From: a virus
Direction: 5' to 3' (one strand)
Virus record (IMG/VR): IMGVR_UViG_3300024520_004448
Location: 1-21,373 of that record
DNA length: 21,373 bases
Below the pieces are notes generated by a model that made no database searches, was not told the origin of the DNA, and saw only the letters and a list, made by a program, of their open reading frames with translations. Within the stretch, counting starts at the first letter, position 1, and each line of letters starts with the position of its first letter. Below, one piece after another: positions 3,888 to 14,052 of the stretch. A program made the position numbers and the translations under genes.

Positions 3888-4433
3888 TCATTGTACCCGC
3901 CGGATCCGGCATAGCAGAGCGCGCCGCAGCTCGGCGGGATCATATCCGGGGCAGAGCGTCGGGGTGCTGGCGGGCTCGTTCTCTGCGTGCCCCTCGACAG
4001 CGGCGACGGGTAGCCGGTATCGGCGGCAGAGCTCCGCCACATGGATCACCAGCACATCCCACCCGTCTGCAGGTACCGGGTCCTCGTGGTACCGGCCGGC
4101 GATGGACACCCCGATCGTGCCTTGATTCTGGCCCTTGTCGTGCGCGCCCGTCTTCGACTCGGGCCGCATCGGGGAGACCGTCCAGGGTCCGCCCTCGAAG
4201 TGCCGGTGGACGAGCCAGTGGTAGCCCCCGGGGCGGCTGATGCCGCGGGCGGCGTGGAGCTCCTCGATCACTGACGGCCCTGCGTGCTCATCGGTGACGG
4301 TGTGGTGCAGGATGATCCCGGTGATGGCTCTCACACTGGCACCGATGGCACCAGCACCGCGAGAAGTGCACGGCGGCGAATCATAGGGAGCTCCAGGCGG
4401 GTAGTCACTGGCATTCCAGACTAAGGGCAACAA
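3888..4433 (-). CDS. N-acetylmuramoyl-L-alanine amidase (Amidase_2/PGRP-type endolysin)
   Basis: Predicted zinc amidase that cuts the bond between muramic acid and the peptide stem of peptidoglycan, the phage lysin. Family marks: GIILHHTVT with His 43/44 as first zinc ligand, PGGYHWLVHRHFEGG at 68-82 (the Y-H-W/F strand), GQNQGTIGVSIAG at 101-113 (the 'N...igI...G' strand), VEGHAE with His 149 as likely second ligand, and STPTLCPG with Cys 161 as likely third. At 181 residues it is a single catalytic domain with no cell-wall-binding domain and no signal peptide, as usual for Gram-negative phage endolysins. The start is uncertain: the first in-frame candidate is TTG 4433, overlapping the previous gene by 29 bases and without a good ribosome binding site. 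GTG at about 4334 would begin right at the first core strand. Confidence 0.85.
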   Translation of the reverse strand: MLPLVWNASDYPPGAPYDSPPCTSRGAGAIGASVRAITGIILHHTVTDEHAGPSVIEELHAARGISRPGGYHWLVHRHFEGGPWTVSPMRPESKTGAHDKGQNQGTIGVSIAGRYHEDPVPADGWDVLVIHVAELCRRYRLPVAAVEGHAENEPASTPTLCPGYDPAELRRALLCRIRRVQ

Positions 4434-7059: not shown

Positions 7060-10000
7060 CTACAGCTCCTCAGCGATCACGACCTCGGCGACCCGGACTA
7101 CCTCGTCGGCGAGCTCGCCGCCCTGGATCGACTCGACTCGCACCGGAGACCGGATCGATCCATAGAGCTGCTCATGCCGGCGCCGGAGGTAGATCACATC
7201 GGTGCCCGGGTCTGTGCTCCGCGGGATGCGCGGGAGGTAGACCACCGGGTCGGCCTGCACGCGATCGATCACGCCCTCGAGCTCGTATGCTGTCGCGACC
7301 TCTGCCCCGGCTGGCTCCATGTTCGCAGTCGTGGTCGTGGTGATGTAGTTGGGATCGGGATCGGAGCCCGAGACGTTCGCGAGGTCGATCCCGTCAGTCC
7401 ATGCGATCTGCGCTGTTCGCCGGCTCGGGGCTGCAGCTCGGGCGGAGGTCGAGCCATCGGGATGGGTATCGAGCTGGTAGCCGGGCTCCATCTCATTCAC
7501 CCGACCCCAGGCATTCGGGAACCCGAAGACGTGCACCGGCCCGAAGACGAGCGCGCCGATCTCGAAATATGGCTCGGCTGTGGTCTGTGCGTCGATCGTG
7601 AGGCGCCACCCGCGAGAGGTCTCAAGCGAGTGGAATAGGATCGTGACGTTCCGCGGAATGATGCGGAGCGTGCTTGTGCCGCTCGCCGGGTCGCCGGTCG
7701 CCGGGTCTACCAGGAACATTCGACAGATCCGGCCACTGTAGCCTCCGTCGAGCTTGCCTTCGGTGTTGCCGCTCAGCCGGCGGAACGTGCCATTGAGATC
7801 AACGATCGCGCCGGCGAGCTCGTGGGCGAACATGTACGAATCGGCGGGGTTTACCGTTCCGACTTCGACCGTGGAGCCGGTGCGGGTGAAGTCGAAAGCG
7901 CCTCCTTCGAGGCTCGTGTCGATCGTTACCACTGTGACCCACGCCGCTGTCCCTTGATCGTAGCGCTCGATCAGACCGGTGCGGAAGTTTACGCCCTGCA
8001 GCGACAGCCCGAGCAGGGTCGCCCCGTGCTCGCTTTCCTGCGTGGTTAGCGCTGCGTCATATTCGAGCGCGATCCGCTGGACTGTGGTGTCGGCGCTACG
8101 CCACGTCGTTCGCGGAGACCGGCTCTCCGCCGGAAAGATTCGCTCTATCGGGTAGAGATAGCGGGTGTCGATGTGGTGGGTATCGCCCCGGATAGCGGGC
8201 CCGTCTGTGGCTCGGAGATAAACGCCATCATCGACATAGACCGGACTCGGAGAGTAGGGGCGCGATGGCAAGCGGTCGGGGTTGTCAACCTCCACGATCC
8301 ATCGGGGCCACGAGCCGAACGCGCCCGCATTGGAGACGTTCGCTAGGTCGTTGCCGATCGTGAACGATGGCTCCATATACCACCAGCTCTTGTTCTGAGT
8401 CACCGCACCGGAGCTGGTTATGTGCCCGTGCCGGACCCAGTCAGTGCCGGCCGTGGAAGGCTGGCTGGCCACACTGTAGGTTCCCAGGTGAGTCCATTGT
8501 TTCGAGCTCGCCTGGTTCCATGGGCGATACCAAACAACCAGCCCGCCGCCTGCATCATTCGCGGACATGCCTACGCGCCACTCGCGCGCCTCGGCGGCGA
8601 GCGCTGTCGAGGTGACTAGCGTAGCGCCCGAGACTGCGTCATAAACCCGGAATTGCGTCGCCGTGAACCGGAACGTGATTACCGACTCCCTTACCGAGTC
8701 GTCCAGACGGAGCTGCAATGCGATCGACTCGTCCGAGAGGCTGCCACCCGTCTTCACTTCCATAGCCCAGTGGACCAGCATCACTTGCGGTAATGCAGTC
8801 GGACCCTCGCTATAAGTGGTGTAGGACACTCCATTATTGGAGCCGCCGAGCCCGTCCCCGGTCGTGATCTGTACGGGGCCGTTGCCCAGTAGCGCATGCG
8901 TCTGAGTGCCCGAGCTCGTGAATACGCGATTGCTCATTCCCCGAGCCTTCGCGTATGGGATGCAAGTCTTCTCGAAGCAGGCCCGATCGCTCGGCAGATC
9001 GCCCCGATCTACCCAGGGCATGCATACGTCATGGTATCCGCCCAGATACAAAGCACTAAGGTAGCCGTCATAGGTCCCGGCATCGGTGTTTCCATTCGTC
9101 AGCAGCACCACCCTGCCCTGCTGCCACGTCGCACAGAAGTGCGTCGGGTGGCTGTTGCCCGTGTCGCCGGTGTACCACCAATTCCCCGACTTGTCGGTAT
9201 CGGTAAACGCTAGCGGGTCGCGGCCCCATCGACTCCATGTCTGGCCGCCATCATCCGAATAGCCCAAGACACACTGGTCGTCTTCGGCGGGCGTGCCCGT
9301 GTCGGCCTTCCGAACGAATACCCAGAGTACCCCGGCATCATCGACACAGCTAGCGAGATCCGAGTCGGTGATATCCTCTCGGCTAGAGCCGCCCGCCGTC
9401 TGCGTAGTATGGGCCCCGAGATCTTCGGCCCAGCTATTGCCCGGGGCCGTGATCCAGTCCGAAGCAGCGGTAACCGCTGTGCTCGACAGCGGGATCGTAG
9501 CCGAGCCCGAGCGCCTACAAGCGAATTGCACATCATTAGCCGCAGCATCCCACTGAATATACGTCAACACGAAGTGCCGATCTGCAATCACTAGATCGTG
9601 GTATCCGCCCACATCATTGCCGCTGGAGGAGGCTCCGGCCCAGGTCTCCACTACGTCGAGATTCATCCCGTGATCCGTCGCAGCGTATTGGCGCAGCACA
9701 TCCACCCCGCCCGAATTGGGCGTCGTGTTTTCGTCTTTCAGGTGCGCTACCACGAGCGTCTGACCATTGAAATACCGAGCACGAAGACGGCCGCCGCCGG
9801 TGGCGATCCCAAGCGCGTAGGTAGTGGCCCCGAGCGCATAGCTAGGGTTTAGAGCCAGTGCCTCAGAGCTGCACCATTCATTTGCAATTGCCCACGTTGC
9901 ACCCTTGTCGGTGCTTACACAGCACCGGATCGCATAGGTTGCGTCGATGTACGTCCGATACCAAAAGAAACAGAAGAGGCGCTCTCCGGCGATCATAATC

Positions 10001-10545
10001 GCCGGTCGATAGCAGTCCTGCCCGAAGCTAGACTGCTCATGTACGATCACCTGCGAGCCCCACACCCCCGCCGCGGTGCGGGTATAGCTGACGATGCCCC
10101 GCTTCGATCCGGTGTTATCGAACCACTGAGCGACCACCACGACCTGGCCATCTTCTAGCGTCACGGCGTCGGGGTGCGTCACCGTGTCGGATGAGGCGAG
10201 AGACCACGCGGGTTGATCCCACCCGCTGATGATCTGCGGTGCCTCCCACCCGCGATAGCCGTTCACGCTGTCGTGGTTGTCGCGCCACACGAAGCCGCCG
10301 CCTCTGGTCAGGCGGTGCGGGTTGCCGCCCTGGTTCGCCTGGATGCGGAGCGCCTGCGCTGCAGTCTGCTCGCCGGAGGTGTGGAGCACCAGCTCGTAGT
10401 CGCCCTGCGCCGCTGGCACCCCCGGCTTCGGGGTTGCCTGTCCATAGGTAGACTCGGCACCCCATAGGGACGAAGACCCCCGAAGGCGGGCGTCTGTGAC
10501 CAGCAGTCCTTGGTATTCCGATCGGCTCTTATCAGACGCTGCCAT
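7060..10545 (-). CDS. large tail protein with N-terminal sialidase-type Asp-box propeller
   Basis: 1161 residues, directly after the tape measure and in the place usually held by distal tail or tip genes. Two perfect Asp boxes (S-x-D-x-G-x-T-W) occur at residues 211-218 (STDKGATW) and 430-437 (SDDGGQTW). They lie in a region (about 110-520) with recurring blade-like units such as THPDAVTLEDGQVVVVAQW and YRPAIMIAGERLFCFFW, so a BNR/sialidase-like beta-propeller is likely. I see no clear FRIP arginine motif, so sialidase activity is not claimed; glycan binding is as likely. Residues about 560-760 look like a lectin-like beta-sandwich. The C-terminal 300 residues (SRGWRLTIDAQTTAEPYFEIGALVF onward) look like a tail-attachment domain. 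Start ATG 10545 overlaps no gene; GGGG lies upstream. Confidence 0.6.
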   Translation of the reverse strand: MAASDKSRSEYQGLLVTDARLRGSSSLWGAESTYGQATPKPGVPAAQGDYELVLHTSGEQTAAQALRIQANQGGNPHRLTRGGGFVWRDNHDSVNGYRGWEAPQIISGWDQPAWSLASSDTVTHPDAVTLEDGQVVVVAQWFDNTGSKRGIVSYTRTAAGVWGSQVIVHEQSSFGQDCYRPAIMIAGERLFCFFWYRTYIDATYAIRCCVSTDKGATWAIANEWCSSEALALNPSYALGATTYALGIATGGGRLRARYFNGQTLVVAHLKDENTTPNSGGVDVLRQYAATDHGMNLDVVETWAGASSSGNDVGGYHDLVIADRHFVLTYIQWDAAANDVQFACRRSGSATIPLSSTAVTAASDWITAPGNSWAEDLGAHTTQTAGGSSREDITDSDLASCVDDAGVLWVFVRKADTGTPAEDDQCVLGYSDDGGQTWSRWGRDPLAFTDTDKSGNWWYTGDTGNSHPTHFCATWQQGRVVLLTNGNTDAGTYDGYLSALYLGGYHDVCMPWVDRGDLPSDRACFEKTCIPYAKARGMSNRVFTSSGTQTHALLGNGPVQITTGDGLGGSNNGVSYTTYSEGPTALPQVMLVHWAMEVKTGGSLSDESIALQLRLDDSVRESVITFRFTATQFRVYDAVSGATLVTSTALAAEAREWRVGMSANDAGGGLVVWYRPWNQASSKQWTHLGTYSVASQPSTAGTDWVRHGHITSSGAVTQNKSWWYMEPSFTIGNDLANVSNAGAFGSWPRWIVEVDNPDRLPSRPYSPSPVYVDDGVYLRATDGPAIRGDTHHIDTRYLYPIERIFPAESRSPRTTWRSADTTVQRIALEYDAALTTQESEHGATLLGLSLQGVNFRTGLIERYDQGTAAWVTVVTIDTSLEGGAFDFTRTGSTVEVGTVNPADSYMFAHELAGAIVDLNGTFRRLSGNTEGKLDGGYSGRICRMFLVDPATGDPASGTSTLRIIPRNVTILFHSLETSRGWRLTIDAQTTAEPYFEIGALVFGPVHVFGFPNAWGRVNEMEPGYQLDTHPDGSTSARAAAPSRRTAQIAWTDGIDLANVSGSDPDPNYITTTTTANMEPAGAEVATAYELEGVIDRVQADPVVYLPRIPRSTDPGTDVIYLRRRHEQLYGSIRSPVRVESIQGGELADEVVRVAEVVIAEEL

Positions 10546-10546
10546 A

Positions 10547-12571
10547 TTAATACCCCAGGATCCCGATTGAGCGGCCCTTGCGGAGCTCTCGCCTCAGTGG
10601 GCCGCGAGCTCGGACAGAGTCCCGCGCGAAGCGATTAAAGTGCTCATAGACCGGCATGGGGATCACTTGAGGCGCCGGGGGATCGCCGCGATTCATCGCC
10701 GCGACACCCTGCGGCCCGATGCGCTCAGTCGCCGACCTGGACAGCACAGCCTCTCCGGGCAGCACTCGCGCGGTGATCTGGTCGGGAGTGCGCGCCATGA
10801 CACCGCCACTCGCGCGGACCACGCCACCGATATCGAAGGCGGGCTGCTCGGCTGCGATAACCGCGACTGTGGCGGCGGTCGTGAGACCGATACCGATAGC
10901 GGCGACAGCACCGGCCACCGGCCCGAGCTGGGCTAGCGCGGTCATTACTGCCACGGCGCCCTGAATGACAGCCTCGGAGATCCCCGCAGCCTTCTGGGCG
11001 GCGAACAACCGCTTAGCGGCTTGGATATTAGTCTCCGCGGCTCGATCGGCTGCTACGCCGAAGGCCGCCGACATTCCGCTCGCCAGCTGTGCCGAGCTGT
11101 TGAGCGCATCATTAGCGCGGGCTCGCCGCTTAGCGGCTACCGACTCCTCGTAGGCTTCGAGCCGCTCTGCCTCTCGGCGCTCTGCCTCTCGGCGGGCCGC
11201 CTCGACTTCGGCGAGCTCCGCCTGGAACTCTATCTGTGAGGCTGCCCGAGCCTCGTCGGCGCCCGCTGCGTCCCCGGTGGCTTGTGCGAGCTCATCGATC
11301 ACCGCTAAGCGCTGCACGTATGCCTCGAAGACGAGGTCTTCGGCGGAGAGCTGTGTAGCCCTCGACGCTGCGATCAGAGCGGCGAGCTCGCCTTCTGCAG
11401 TGAGGATCGCTGCCTGGTTCGCCTGCCTTGCCGCCTCTACCTCGGAGAGAGTGTCAAGGGCGGCCGTGGCTGCGACCGTGGCGTCGGTGCCGTCCCTCGT
11501 AGCCGCCGTGTGGACCGTGACTGCGCCCGTGGCGTCTCGGACAGCCTGGCGGGCCGTCCAGAAGGCCTGCGCTTCGTCGAGCGCTGCGTCTCGGGCAGTC
11601 CCGAGAGCATCGCCCATACCCACGATCCCGAGAGAGAAGATGTCCAGCGCGCTCGAAAAGTCGCCCGAGAGCATCGCCGACAGCGCACCGGCTACAAGCC
11701 CCGCGCGCTCGATGATCTCATTGAAAGTGGTAGCTACGAATTGGCCCATGAAGACGAAGCCGAGAGTGAAGCCATCCACGAGCCCCGCCACGTCGAGCGT
11801 GTCGATCAACCGAGCCTTCGCGCCGTCCAGGCTATTGTCGAGCTCCGCCATGGAGCGTTGCCAGTCGCCCGCCGCCTTCGCTGCATCGGGCCCGACACCC
11901 ACGCCGAATTCGGTGGCCAGGGTGACGAAGTCGTCGAGCGGCCCAGCACCCGCGAAGGCTTGCAAGAGCTTGGTTCCGCTTGCCCCGAAGAGATCCGCCG
12001 CCGCCGCGGCTTTTCCGGTCTTCCCTTCCATCTCGGAGAGCGATCCGATCACGTCGCGGAAGATTGCATCGCCTTCGCGGAGCTCGCCGGAGGTCTCGTG
12101 CGTCTCGACTTCAAGGGCGGCGAATGCGTCCACCGTCCGCTTCGTCTCGCGCTCCACATCGCCGAGCACAACGGGCAGCTTCGTAAGAACTCGACTCAGC
12201 CCCGAGAAGTCTTGCCCACTGCCCTCCGCTGCGAGACGGAGACCGGCGAGGGTGTCTGCAGCGATACCCGTGCGCGTGCTCATGTCGGTGAGCTCGTTTC
12301 TCAGATCGGCCACTTCCTGACCGAACTTCCCGACCGCTACCCCGGCGCCAAGAATTGCCCCGCTGGCCACTTTCAGGAAGTCGCCCCACGCCTGCTTGCT
12401 CGCCGCGGCGGTGCGTTTCGCCTCTTTCTCCGCCTTCTGGAGTTGCCGATTCAACGACCGCACCATCTTCTTCGCTTCTTTCTCGCTGATCCCCGGCATC
12501 TTCGCCAGCTCAGCTTGAAGGTCGCGGATGTCCGCCTGTACAGACAGAACTACCGAGCGCCTACGAGCCAT
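10547..12571 (-). CDS. tape measure protein
   Basis: 674 residues. Tape measures set tail length and line the tail tube. The order of features is typical. A basic helical N-terminus (ISEKEAKKMVRSLNRQLQKA) is followed by a TMP-core-like region with TRTGIAADTLAGLRLAAEGSG and LFGASGTKLL, then hydrophobic segments (about 265-330). Next come long Ala/Glu/Arg-rich coiled coils (about 340-490, EVEAARREAERREAERLEAY) and Gly/Ala-rich membrane-like helices (about 530-580). The C-terminal signature AFDIGGVVRASGG then TARVLPGEAVLSRSA is common in tape measures. Start ATG 12571 has GGGAGGG about 7 bases upstream and overlaps the previous gene by 11 bases. The chaperone genes lie upstream, as expected. Confidence 0.9.
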   Translation of the reverse strand: MARRRSVVLSVQADIRDLQAELAKMPGISEKEAKKMVRSLNRQLQKAEKEAKRTAAASKQAWGDFLKVASGAILGAGVAVGKFGQEVADLRNELTDMSTRTGIAADTLAGLRLAAEGSGQDFSGLSRVLTKLPVVLGDVERETKRTVDAFAALEVETHETSGELREGDAIFRDVIGSLSEMEGKTGKAAAAADLFGASGTKLLQAFAGAGPLDDFVTLATEFGVGVGPDAAKAAGDWQRSMAELDNSLDGAKARLIDTLDVAGLVDGFTLGFVFMGQFVATTFNEIIERAGLVAGALSAMLSGDFSSALDIFSLGIVGMGDALGTARDAALDEAQAFWTARQAVRDATGAVTVHTAATRDGTDATVAATAALDTLSEVEAARQANQAAILTAEGELAALIAASRATQLSAEDLVFEAYVQRLAVIDELAQATGDAAGADEARAASQIEFQAELAEVEAARREAERREAERLEAYEESVAAKRRARANDALNSSAQLASGMSAAFGVAADRAAETNIQAAKRLFAAQKAAGISEAVIQGAVAVMTALAQLGPVAGAVAAIGIGLTTAATVAVIAAEQPAFDIGGVVRASGGVMARTPDQITARVLPGEAVLSRSATERIGPQGVAAMNRGDPPAPQVIPMPVYEHFNRFARDSVRARGPLRRELRKGRSIGILGY

Positions 12572-12980
12572 CTAGAACCCTCCCGAGAGCTTCGGCGAGC
12601 TCGTCTTCTAGAAGAGCGATGCTCTTTCGCCCCGGGGTATCTACCAGCGCTTCCCATGCCCGCCGATCGGTACCGGCGAACTTCACCGCGTAGGGGTAGG
12701 GAAACTCGCGCCCGTCGCCCGTCTTGACGGTCGCATCATTGAAGATCACCGATTCGAGCCGCGTCGTTCCGACAAGCCGCTCCTCGCGCTGCAGTCGATC
12801 TTTAGAGACTCCGCTCTTCACCGGCCAAGCCCGTTTGGCCGGATCATAGACGCGGGAGGTGTGCTTGCGGAGCCCCTTCACCACTTCGGGGTTGGCCTGC
12901 TCCACTGCGTCTCGGACCATCTTCTCCAGCCCGCCGCTGATCGAGATTGACGCTCTACCGCTGCGGACCTTTAGCGCCAT
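12561..12980 (-). CDS. HK97-gp10-like neck/tail protein
   Basis: 139 residues. The pattern is a helical N-terminal half (SGGLEKMVRDAVEQANPEVVKGLRKH), then WPVKSGVSKDRL, strands around RLESVIFND, then FPYPYAVKFAGTD and a C-terminal helix (SIALLEDELAEALGRVL). This resembles the HK97 gp10 family, whose members contain 'P..TG.L..S' and 'YA.yvE.GT' elements. Those proteins act at the head-tail joint or tail completion. The resemblance is by eye only. The location between the tail chaperones and the tape measure is unusual for that family, which normally sits before the major tail gene. The start overlaps the end of the frameshifted chaperone frame by 26 bases. Confidence 0.5.
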   Translation of the reverse strand: MALKVRSGRASISISGGLEKMVRDAVEQANPEVVKGLRKHTSRVYDPAKRAWPVKSGVSKDRLQREERLVGTTRLESVIFNDATVKTGDGREFPYPYAVKFAGTDRRAWEALVDTPGRKSIALLEDELAEALGRVLDGS

Positions 12981-13538
12981 CGGACAGCCCCCAGAACTCC
13001 GCAGCGCTCTGGCTCTCCACCTCGATGCCTGCGACCGGCGGCGGGCGGAAGCTCTCGCCGGTGGGATCGCATTTCACGCGGTACCACGCGAAGAGCCGAG
13101 TCTGTGCCGCGCGGTCTAGGGTCGCGAACCATCCGGGGGCTTGTGACCATAGGCGCTCGATCTCCGCAATGCTGAAGTCTAGGCCGACGAAGCCTCTCCG
13201 CCGGCCTCTGAATTTCCCTCCTCTTCGGCGACCTCGTCAACCTGGACCAGATCGTCGGTAGCGAAGTCGAAGGCTGCGAGCCCCGCGGCCTGCAGCTGCA
13301 CCAGCTTGATACCCCGACCGACGAGCTCATCGATCACGTTCCCGCCGTAGATGGCGACGTTGTGGCCGTAGCGCCCACCGGGGCGCCCTGGGCCCGTCCA
13401 GCAGAGCCCGAGAGCCGCTGCCCATGCCCGGGTCGGATTGACGGCAAAGCCGACGAGGAGGTCATATCGGACAGCATAGGAAGTGGGGATCCGTAGGGGT
13501 ATCTCTCGATCCCCGACTGTGACGGTGCGGGTGGACAT
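12955..13538 (-). CDS. frameshifted tail assembly chaperone (gpGT equivalent), 194 aa
   Basis: Product predicted from a programmed -1 frameshift: 109 residues in the zero frame, then 85 residues in the -1 frame, ending at TAG 12957-12955. The extension begins FRGRRRGFVG and continues LDFSIAEIERLWSQAPGWF, then FAWYRVKCDPTGESF and AAEFWGLSDG. It reads like a real soluble protein. In the -1 frame there is a TGA at 13239-13237 and no ATG, GTG or TTG before the conserved-looking core, so independent translation is unlikely. In lambda and many siphophages, chaperones G and GT, made by the same kind of slip, load the tape measure for tube assembly. The location between major tail and tape measure genes matches exactly. 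Confidence 0.85.
13179..13538 (-). CDS. tail assembly chaperone, zero-frame product (gpG equivalent)
   Basis: 119 residues, starting at ATG 13538 behind GGAGAGCAGCC. It begins with a strand-rich part (MSTRTVTVGDREIPLRIPTS), then a helical part with RAWAAALGLCW and VIDELVGRGIKLVQLQAAGLAAF, and an acidic tail (EVAEEEGNSEAGGEASSA). The size, position directly after the major tail protein, and the slippery site near its end identify it as the short tail assembly chaperone. Most ribosomes would stop at TAG 13181-13179 and make this product; a minority would shift and make the longer one. Sequence similarity to known chaperones is not obvious by eye, which is normal for this group. Confidence 0.8.
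   Translation of the reverse strand: MSTRTVTVGDREIPLRIPTSYAVRYDLLVGFAVNPTRAWAAALGLCWTGPGRPGGRYGHNVAIYGGNVIDELVGRGIKLVQLQAAGLAAFDFATDDLVQVDEVAEEEGNSEAGGEASSA
13181..13207 (-). promoter_or_regulatory. frameshift-stimulating hairpin
   Basis: In the mRNA, AGGCCGGCGGA pairs with the segment ending in CGGCCT. There are six Watson-Crick pairs at the base, then G-U, C-G, G-C, G-U and A-U, and possibly G-C, closing a 3-base loop. It starts 4 bases after the slippery heptamer and contains part of the zero-frame stop. Such a stem pauses ribosomes at the slip site. Confidence 0.75.
13212..13218 (-). promoter_or_regulatory. -1 slippery heptamer GGGAAAT
   Basis: Read on the - strand as G GGA AAT, with GGA as codon 108 and AAT as codon 109 of the chaperone frame. 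This is the canonical X XXY YYZ form and differs from the lambda G-T site (GGGAAAG) only in the last base. A purine-rich GAAGAGGAG directly upstream could act as an internal Shine-Dalgarno-like stimulator. Confidence 0.85.
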
Positions 13539-13560: not shown

Positions 13561-14052
13561 TTAGGCTGCGGTCACTGTGCCGTAACAGGTGAAATTGCAG
13601 CTGAGGGTATTGGGCTCGCCCTCGGCGAAATCGGCGAGGACGTGGCAGTCGGTGAGCGTGATGGTCCTGTCGGTATCGCCGTGATCAGATCCCTCTACCG
13701 CGAGCTCCACATCTACGGTGTATACCTCCGCACTCGCTCCGAGCGTGGAGACGTTGGCCGAGTAGCCTGCGGTCTTCCTGACGAAGTCCATCGCCACACC
13801 GACAGCGGCATCGGTGAGCTCTGCCAGCTGCAGCGAGAAGCTGCCCGTGGGCGGAGCGATCGACGTGTGACGGACACCCGTCAGAACACCGCGCGCCTCG
13901 TAGGCAACCACGTTTCGGAGGGTCTCCTGTAGACCGGAGATAGACAGGTCTCCGACGGTGAAAGGCAAGGTGAGGGTAACCGGTGTCCCGGTACCGTCTG
14001 AAAGCTTGATCGCACCATCGAACAGGTGTTTTATTGTAGAGCCGACAGCCAT
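13561..14052 (-). CDS. major tail (tube) protein
   Basis: 163 residues, strand-rich. It begins MAVGSTIKHLFDGAIKLSDG, followed by PVTLTLPFTVGDLSISGLQ, a typical tube-protein opening where a beta-sheet core is built around a short domain. Later segments (GSFSLQLAELTD, YTVDVELAVEGSDHGDTDRTITLTDCHV) match the pattern of alternating strands. The gene order supports it: tail terminator before, chaperones and tape measure after. The start ATG 14052 lies 2 bases after the previous stop, with GAGGAGGGC supplied by the last codons of the upstream gene as a strong ribosome binding site, fitting a highly made protein. It polymerises into the tail tube. Confidence 0.75.
   Translation of the reverse strand: MAVGSTIKHLFDGAIKLSDGTGTPVTLTLPFTVGDLSISGLQETLRNVVAYEARGVLTGVRHTSIAPPTGSFSLQLAELTDAAVGVAMDFVRKTAGYSANVSTLGASAEVYTVDVELAVEGSDHGDTDRTITLTDCHVLADFAEGEPNTLSCNFTCYGTVTAA

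Follow-up and report, generated by a model that had tools for sequence, protein, structure and literature searches.

A probable programmed −1 ribosomal frameshift of the lambda G/GT kind in the tail assembly chaperone gene of an uncultivated virus and its relatives

Introduction

Two overlapping reading frames on the minus strand of an IMG/VR uncultivated virus record (IMGVR_UViG_3300024520_004448; 21,373 bases, here called the window) raise the question whether they are joined during translation into one protein. In phage lambda, a short tail assembly chaperone and its frameshift fusion both bind the tape measure protein, the T part recruits tail tube subunits, and the ratio of the two forms is set by frameshifting (PMC5009743). 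Judging from its sequence, the locus in the window very probably (about 0.95) carries a programmed −1 ribosomal frameshift of the lambda G/GT kind. A preliminary description of the same DNA had proposed this, pointing to the known chaperone strategy of siphophages; conservation of both frames, gene order and resemblance in fold now lend support to that agreement. The features of the locus and the evidence for each are as follows.

13179..13538, minus strand: zero-frame open reading frame (ORF), tail assembly chaperone (gpG-like), 119 amino acids (aa); ORF, relatives, AlphaFold2 model
13212..13218, minus strand: slippery heptamer G_GGA_AAT, codons 108-109; sequence and phase, slip motif at the aligned codon in 10/10 lineages
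13181..13207, minus strand: hairpin of 12 pairs with a loop of 3 nucleotides (nt), candidate stimulator; 4 nt 3' of the heptamer
13179..13181, minus strand: zero-frame stop codon TAG; sequence
12955..13212, minus strand: −1 frame extension (T-like domain), 85 codons plus TAG; conservation, purifying selection, predicted helical core
13217..13222, minus strand: AGGAGG, Shine-Dalgarno-like, overlapping the 5' end of the heptamer; read from the sequence

Reading frames and fusion product

The heptamer GGGAAAT is located at 13218-13212 of the minus strand and is split as G_GGA_AAT over codons 108/109 of ORF 13538-13179, which confirms the slippery phase assigned to it earlier. The −1 frame opens six codons 5' of the heptamer and runs to a TAG at 12957-12955. 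Its overlap with the zero frame measures only 55 nt and includes the heptamer. Translation across a −1 slip gives a fusion of the predicted length of 194 aa (MSTRT...EEEGN-FRGRR...GPQR), 85 of which are added after the slip. The preliminary description had counted these 85 codons from the zero-frame stop; only 74 of them are found beyond it. The −1 frame had also been described as filling the gap to the next gene. It does so, but runs further, ending at 12955 and thus overlapping the next gene (start 12980) by 26 nt.

From the stop codon that bounds it upstream, the −1 frame contains no ATG, GTG or TTG as far as codon 47 past the heptamer, a position beyond the conserved core of the extension, in line with the earlier remark that the frame has no start of its own before that core. 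In the other minus-strand genes of the window, canonical in-phase XXXYYYZ heptamers occur 9 times per 5,057 codons, and the presence of one in the permitted overlap yields a shuffle p of 0.083 for the window locus alone.

Relatives and the slip site

Searches with the −1 domain and the zero-frame domain yielded relatives that are all IMG/VR contigs and were collapsed to ten lineages including the window. Zero-frame homologues in the nine other lineages share 30–43% identity with the window, the −1 extensions 27–40%. The alignment of homologues that had been suggested as a check of heptamer and −1 frame found both frames retained in 10/10 lineages, with the slip site of the aligned zero-frame proteins falling in a single column. 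A −1 frame not conserved among relatives had been named as the observation that would speak against frameshifting; every lineage keeps the extension. The slip codons at the aligned position are given below.

GAG GGA AAT: window
CTG GGA AAC: L006, L014/L015
GAG GGA AAC: L007/L018; CAG GGA AAC in L017
CGG GGT TTT: L001-L003, L005
GAG GGT TTT: L010/L011, L016
GAG GAT TTC: L009, L012
GCG GAC CCT: L008

The heptamers of the relatives are thus GGGAAAC, GGGTTTT or the non-canonical GGATTTC and GGACCCT. Some of them call for coordinates.

L007:2989-2998, L017:3327-3336, L018:3330-3339: GGGAAAC directly followed by the zero-frame TAG (GGA AAC TAG)
L009:3330-3336, L012:3321-3327: non-canonical candidate G_GAT_TTC
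L008:2968-2974: non-canonical candidate G_GAC_CCT

Canonical XXXYYYZ heptamers are present in seven of the ten lineages (P about 9e-5, dinucleotide shuffles, a value that treats the lineages as independent, which is true only in part). The broader pattern GG[AG]YYYZ, which was defined post hoc after the sites had been seen, fits 10/10 sites and has 26 in-phase occurrences among the 28,707 codons of the long open frames of the relatives and 2 among the 4,898 of the other genes of the window. The residues encoded at the slip site vary (GN, GF, DF, DP) while the slip geometry stays the same, a combination that is hard to explain unless slipping itself is selected.

A non-canonical P-site codon has a precedent. 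G_GAU_UUU is a known shift site of pea enation mosaic virus (PMC5009743), with a P-site GAU like that of G_GAT_TTC in L009 and L012, which makes GGATTTC a plausible slip site; the known case differs in being a plant RNA virus polymerase gene read by eukaryotic ribosomes. GGACCCT may act in the same way by analogy. Since three lineages with GAT or GAC in the P site fall outside the XXXYYYZ rule, the A-site YYY run, and not the P-site triplet, may be what selection preserves while the codon pair is swapped repeatedly at a fixed position; we regard this suggestion as evenly balanced.

Selection and structure of the extension

The substitution pattern in close pairs indicates purifying selection on the extension. 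L017 and L018 form the most informative pair: their extensions differ at 6, 2 and 21 sites in −1-frame codon positions 1, 2 and 3, so that 21 of the 29 are third-position changes, with a non-synonymous divergence (dN) of 0.062, a synonymous divergence (dS) of 0.83 and a dN/dS of about 0.075. In L001, L002, L003 and L005, a stretch of 31 nt, from the heptamer to the zero-frame stop, shows no variation, and in the 300 nt 5' of it most differences are third-position ones. The core of the extension common to the relatives reads I..IER.W..PGWF..L....Q..L.A and is predicted to form a helix-PGWF-helix unit, with a predicted local distance difference test score (pLDDT) above 90 over residues 11–40.

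Gene order and identity of the chaperone

The order tail tube, chaperone, tape measure is kept in the relatives, with one extra gene of 139 aa intervening. The neighbours in the window are listed below.

13561..14052, minus strand: upstream gene, probable tail tube protein, 163 aa; position, homologues directly upstream of the chaperone in relatives
12561..12980, minus strand: 139-aa gene between chaperone and tape measure; weak head-tail connector match, PHROG 1929, expectation value (E) 0.019
10547..12571, minus strand: tape measure protein, 674 aa; PHROG tape-measure families, best E 3.6e-20

A homologue of the 163-aa protein is found directly 5' of the chaperone in every relative (29–54% identity). 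The protein has no family match in PHROGs or Pfam, and it is its position that makes it probably the tube protein. Homologues of the 139-aa gene occupy the equivalent place in L010/L011, L012 and L014/L015.

The AlphaFold2 model of the zero-frame protein has a pLDDT of 87. Its best matches among solved folds are YqbN (3klu, Z 7.1), 5ir0 (Z 5.5) and the HK97 tail assembly chaperone (2ob9, Z 4.4), the next score being 2.4. YqbN is, we assume, a member of the XkdN-like chaperone group. Against viral predicted structures, Foldseek returned a weak list in which N15 protein GT appears alongside several proteins annotated as tail assembly chaperones. Weak single-member family hits (DUF4921, a membrane protein PHROG and others) were taken as chance. 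Searches of two genome-contig scans and of PDB sequences returned no relatives. Low sequence similarity is a known property of tail assembly chaperones (PMC5009743). Position, fold resemblance and conserved frameshift together make the assignment of the zero-frame gene as a tail assembly chaperone firm, although each part alone is weak.

Proposed mechanism

The slip, its efficiency, the role of the hairpin and the binding partners are proposed here from sequence and comparison. Most ribosomes would read 13538-13179 and produce the 119-aa chaperone (G form). In a minority, tRNA-Gly on GGA and tRNA-Asn on AAT would slip one base back onto GGG AAA, and reading would continue with TTC AGA GGC... 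to give the 194-aa fusion with its T-like helical domain (GT form). The hairpin of 12 base pairs situated 4 nt 3' of the heptamer would serve as a ribosome pause. If the lambda model holds here, the tape measure protein would be bound by the short form and the fusion alike, present in a fixed ratio, and tail tube subunits would be brought in by the T part.

Several observations weigh against this interpretation. The P-site codon does not fit XXXYYYZ perfectly in three lineages, and according to a review of work in E. coli, slipping of tRNA-Asn (AAT to AAA) may be weak where bacteria prefer AAG (PMC5009743). The fold-match scores are modest, and the Foldseek E-values are not significant. Neither frame of the window or of any relative matches a named chaperone family in Pfam or PHROGs, and tblastn retrieved no relative from 50,697 phage records. 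Structure downstream of the slip site in the relatives is not consistently stronger than background (Stouffer z about −2).

The hairpin and alternative explanations

Folding of the window reproduced the hairpin of about 12 pairs reported earlier at 4 bases downstream of the heptamer: 12 pairs, counting G-U, follow one another without a break around a loop of 3 nt, and the whole extends from 13207 to 13181. Stems of at least 12 pairs occur near 4 of 4,470 codon-phased sites in the coding strand of the window. The folding energy of 40 nt at the site lies within the lowest 0.4–0.9% of background, and that of 70 nt is unremarkable when compared to dinucleotide shuffles (z −1.3). The preliminary description had the hairpin embracing the zero-frame stop; as its last base (13181) is the first base of the TAG and it touches no other base of that codon, it abuts the stop instead.

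The hairpin probably pauses the ribosome. An alternative that keeps the frameshift holds that the hairpin is uninvolved, and that efficiency is governed by the heptamer alone or by the AGGAGG 5' of it. The lack of a consistently stronger structure in the relatives speaks for this view. A downstream RNA structure shared across them was sought and not found, the energies being mixed, and since an equally strong simple hairpin is not general, the hairpin of the window is classed as a candidate stimulator. Frameshifting chaperone genes of the lambda G/GT type do not depend for their definition on a stimulatory structure downstream. Against it stand the rarity of the stem in the window and its suitable distance from the heptamer, and we consider an uninvolved hairpin possible, although unlikely. 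A small stem was also observed after GGGAAAC and TAG in L007, L017 and L018 (AAGGGC...GCCCTT in L018).

The remaining explanations, in which no ribosome changes frame, were considered and found to be poorly supported. The frames could be two separate genes, with the second initiated independently or re-initiated once ribosomes have reached the stop of the first, as in Microbacterium cluster EA phages, which express their chaperone ORFs separately without an evident frameshift (PMC7302621); the AGGAGG just 5' of the heptamer could also be taken as a ribosome binding signal in favour of such initiation. The −1 frame of the window offers no start codon before the conserved core, however, downstream starts in the relatives are mostly situated within or after the core, and a slip motif would have no reason to hold one codon in ten lineages. 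We therefore judge separate translation highly improbable. Even less credit is given to a real frame change by transcriptional slippage, which is also able to fuse overlapping bacterial frames (general knowledge; review PMC5009743), but for which the window site offers only GGG AAA, without a long homopolymer, and the relatives at most five T. The least probable explanation is that a one-base insertion or deletion in sequencing or assembly, or decay, splits a single chaperone ORF, as might be suspected of a single uncultivated contig, where one such change could mimic a frame break. The relatives refute it, short of one error common to all of them: contigs assembled independently and drawn from many samples break frame at the same codon, each time with a slip motif, and both frames show signs of purifying selection.

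Comparison with known systems

With the G/GT pair of phage lambda (−1 shift at GGGAAAG), the locus shares a short zero-frame product and a −1 extension. It differs in AAT instead of AAG in the A site, in the 139-aa gene between chaperone and tape measure, and in showing no detectable sequence similarity. The predicted zero-frame fold is similar to the HK97 chaperone and YqbN at 8–12% sequence identity, with moderate scores.

Published accounts of chaperone genes in other phages give GGGAAAC, GGGAAAA and GGGTTTT as slip sites, most of them predicted (PMC3556154, PMC3483164, PMC11749239, PMC7266877). GGGAAAT was not found named as a slip site in the literature searched, a limited search that gives no evidence of novelty. 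In gp18/gp19 of Burkholderia phage KL1 (PMC3483164), the predicted GGGAAAC lies directly before the zero-frame stop, as in L007/L018 and L017, whereas the heptamer of the window is 30 nt away from it. GGGTTTT and GGGAAAC sites like those of the relatives are also reported from ORF16/16.1 of Burkholderia phage PhiE067 (PMC7266877) and from Caulobacter phage Colossus (PMC3556154); the proteins of the window differ in having no sequence match in the phage record collection.

Other genes of the window

A 1161-aa protein is encoded at 7060-10545. It has a single weak BNR/Asp-box match (E 4e-4, below Pfam's cut-off), and its N-terminal ~200 residues are conserved in relatives, 3' of the tape measure gene. 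The gene at 3888-4433, with a TTG start, encodes an N-acetylmuramoyl-L-alanine amidase (Amidase_2, E 1e-13), a probable endolysin. A YqaJ-like recombinase, slightly below Pfam's cut-off, is found at 3-938 on the plus strand, opposite to the structural genes.

Conclusion

The proposed mechanism is an ordinary, textbook one, and the sequence family is a new and unannotated one of the lambda G/GT type. The only mild surprise is that slip codons have been exchanged while their position stayed fixed, with three of the lineages departing from the canonical heptamer rule. For this group of uncultivated siphophages, two gene products can be named that automated annotation would miss, and the slip sites, a small set of natural variants at a single homologous position, are useful for testing which tRNA pairs allow −1 slippage in phages.
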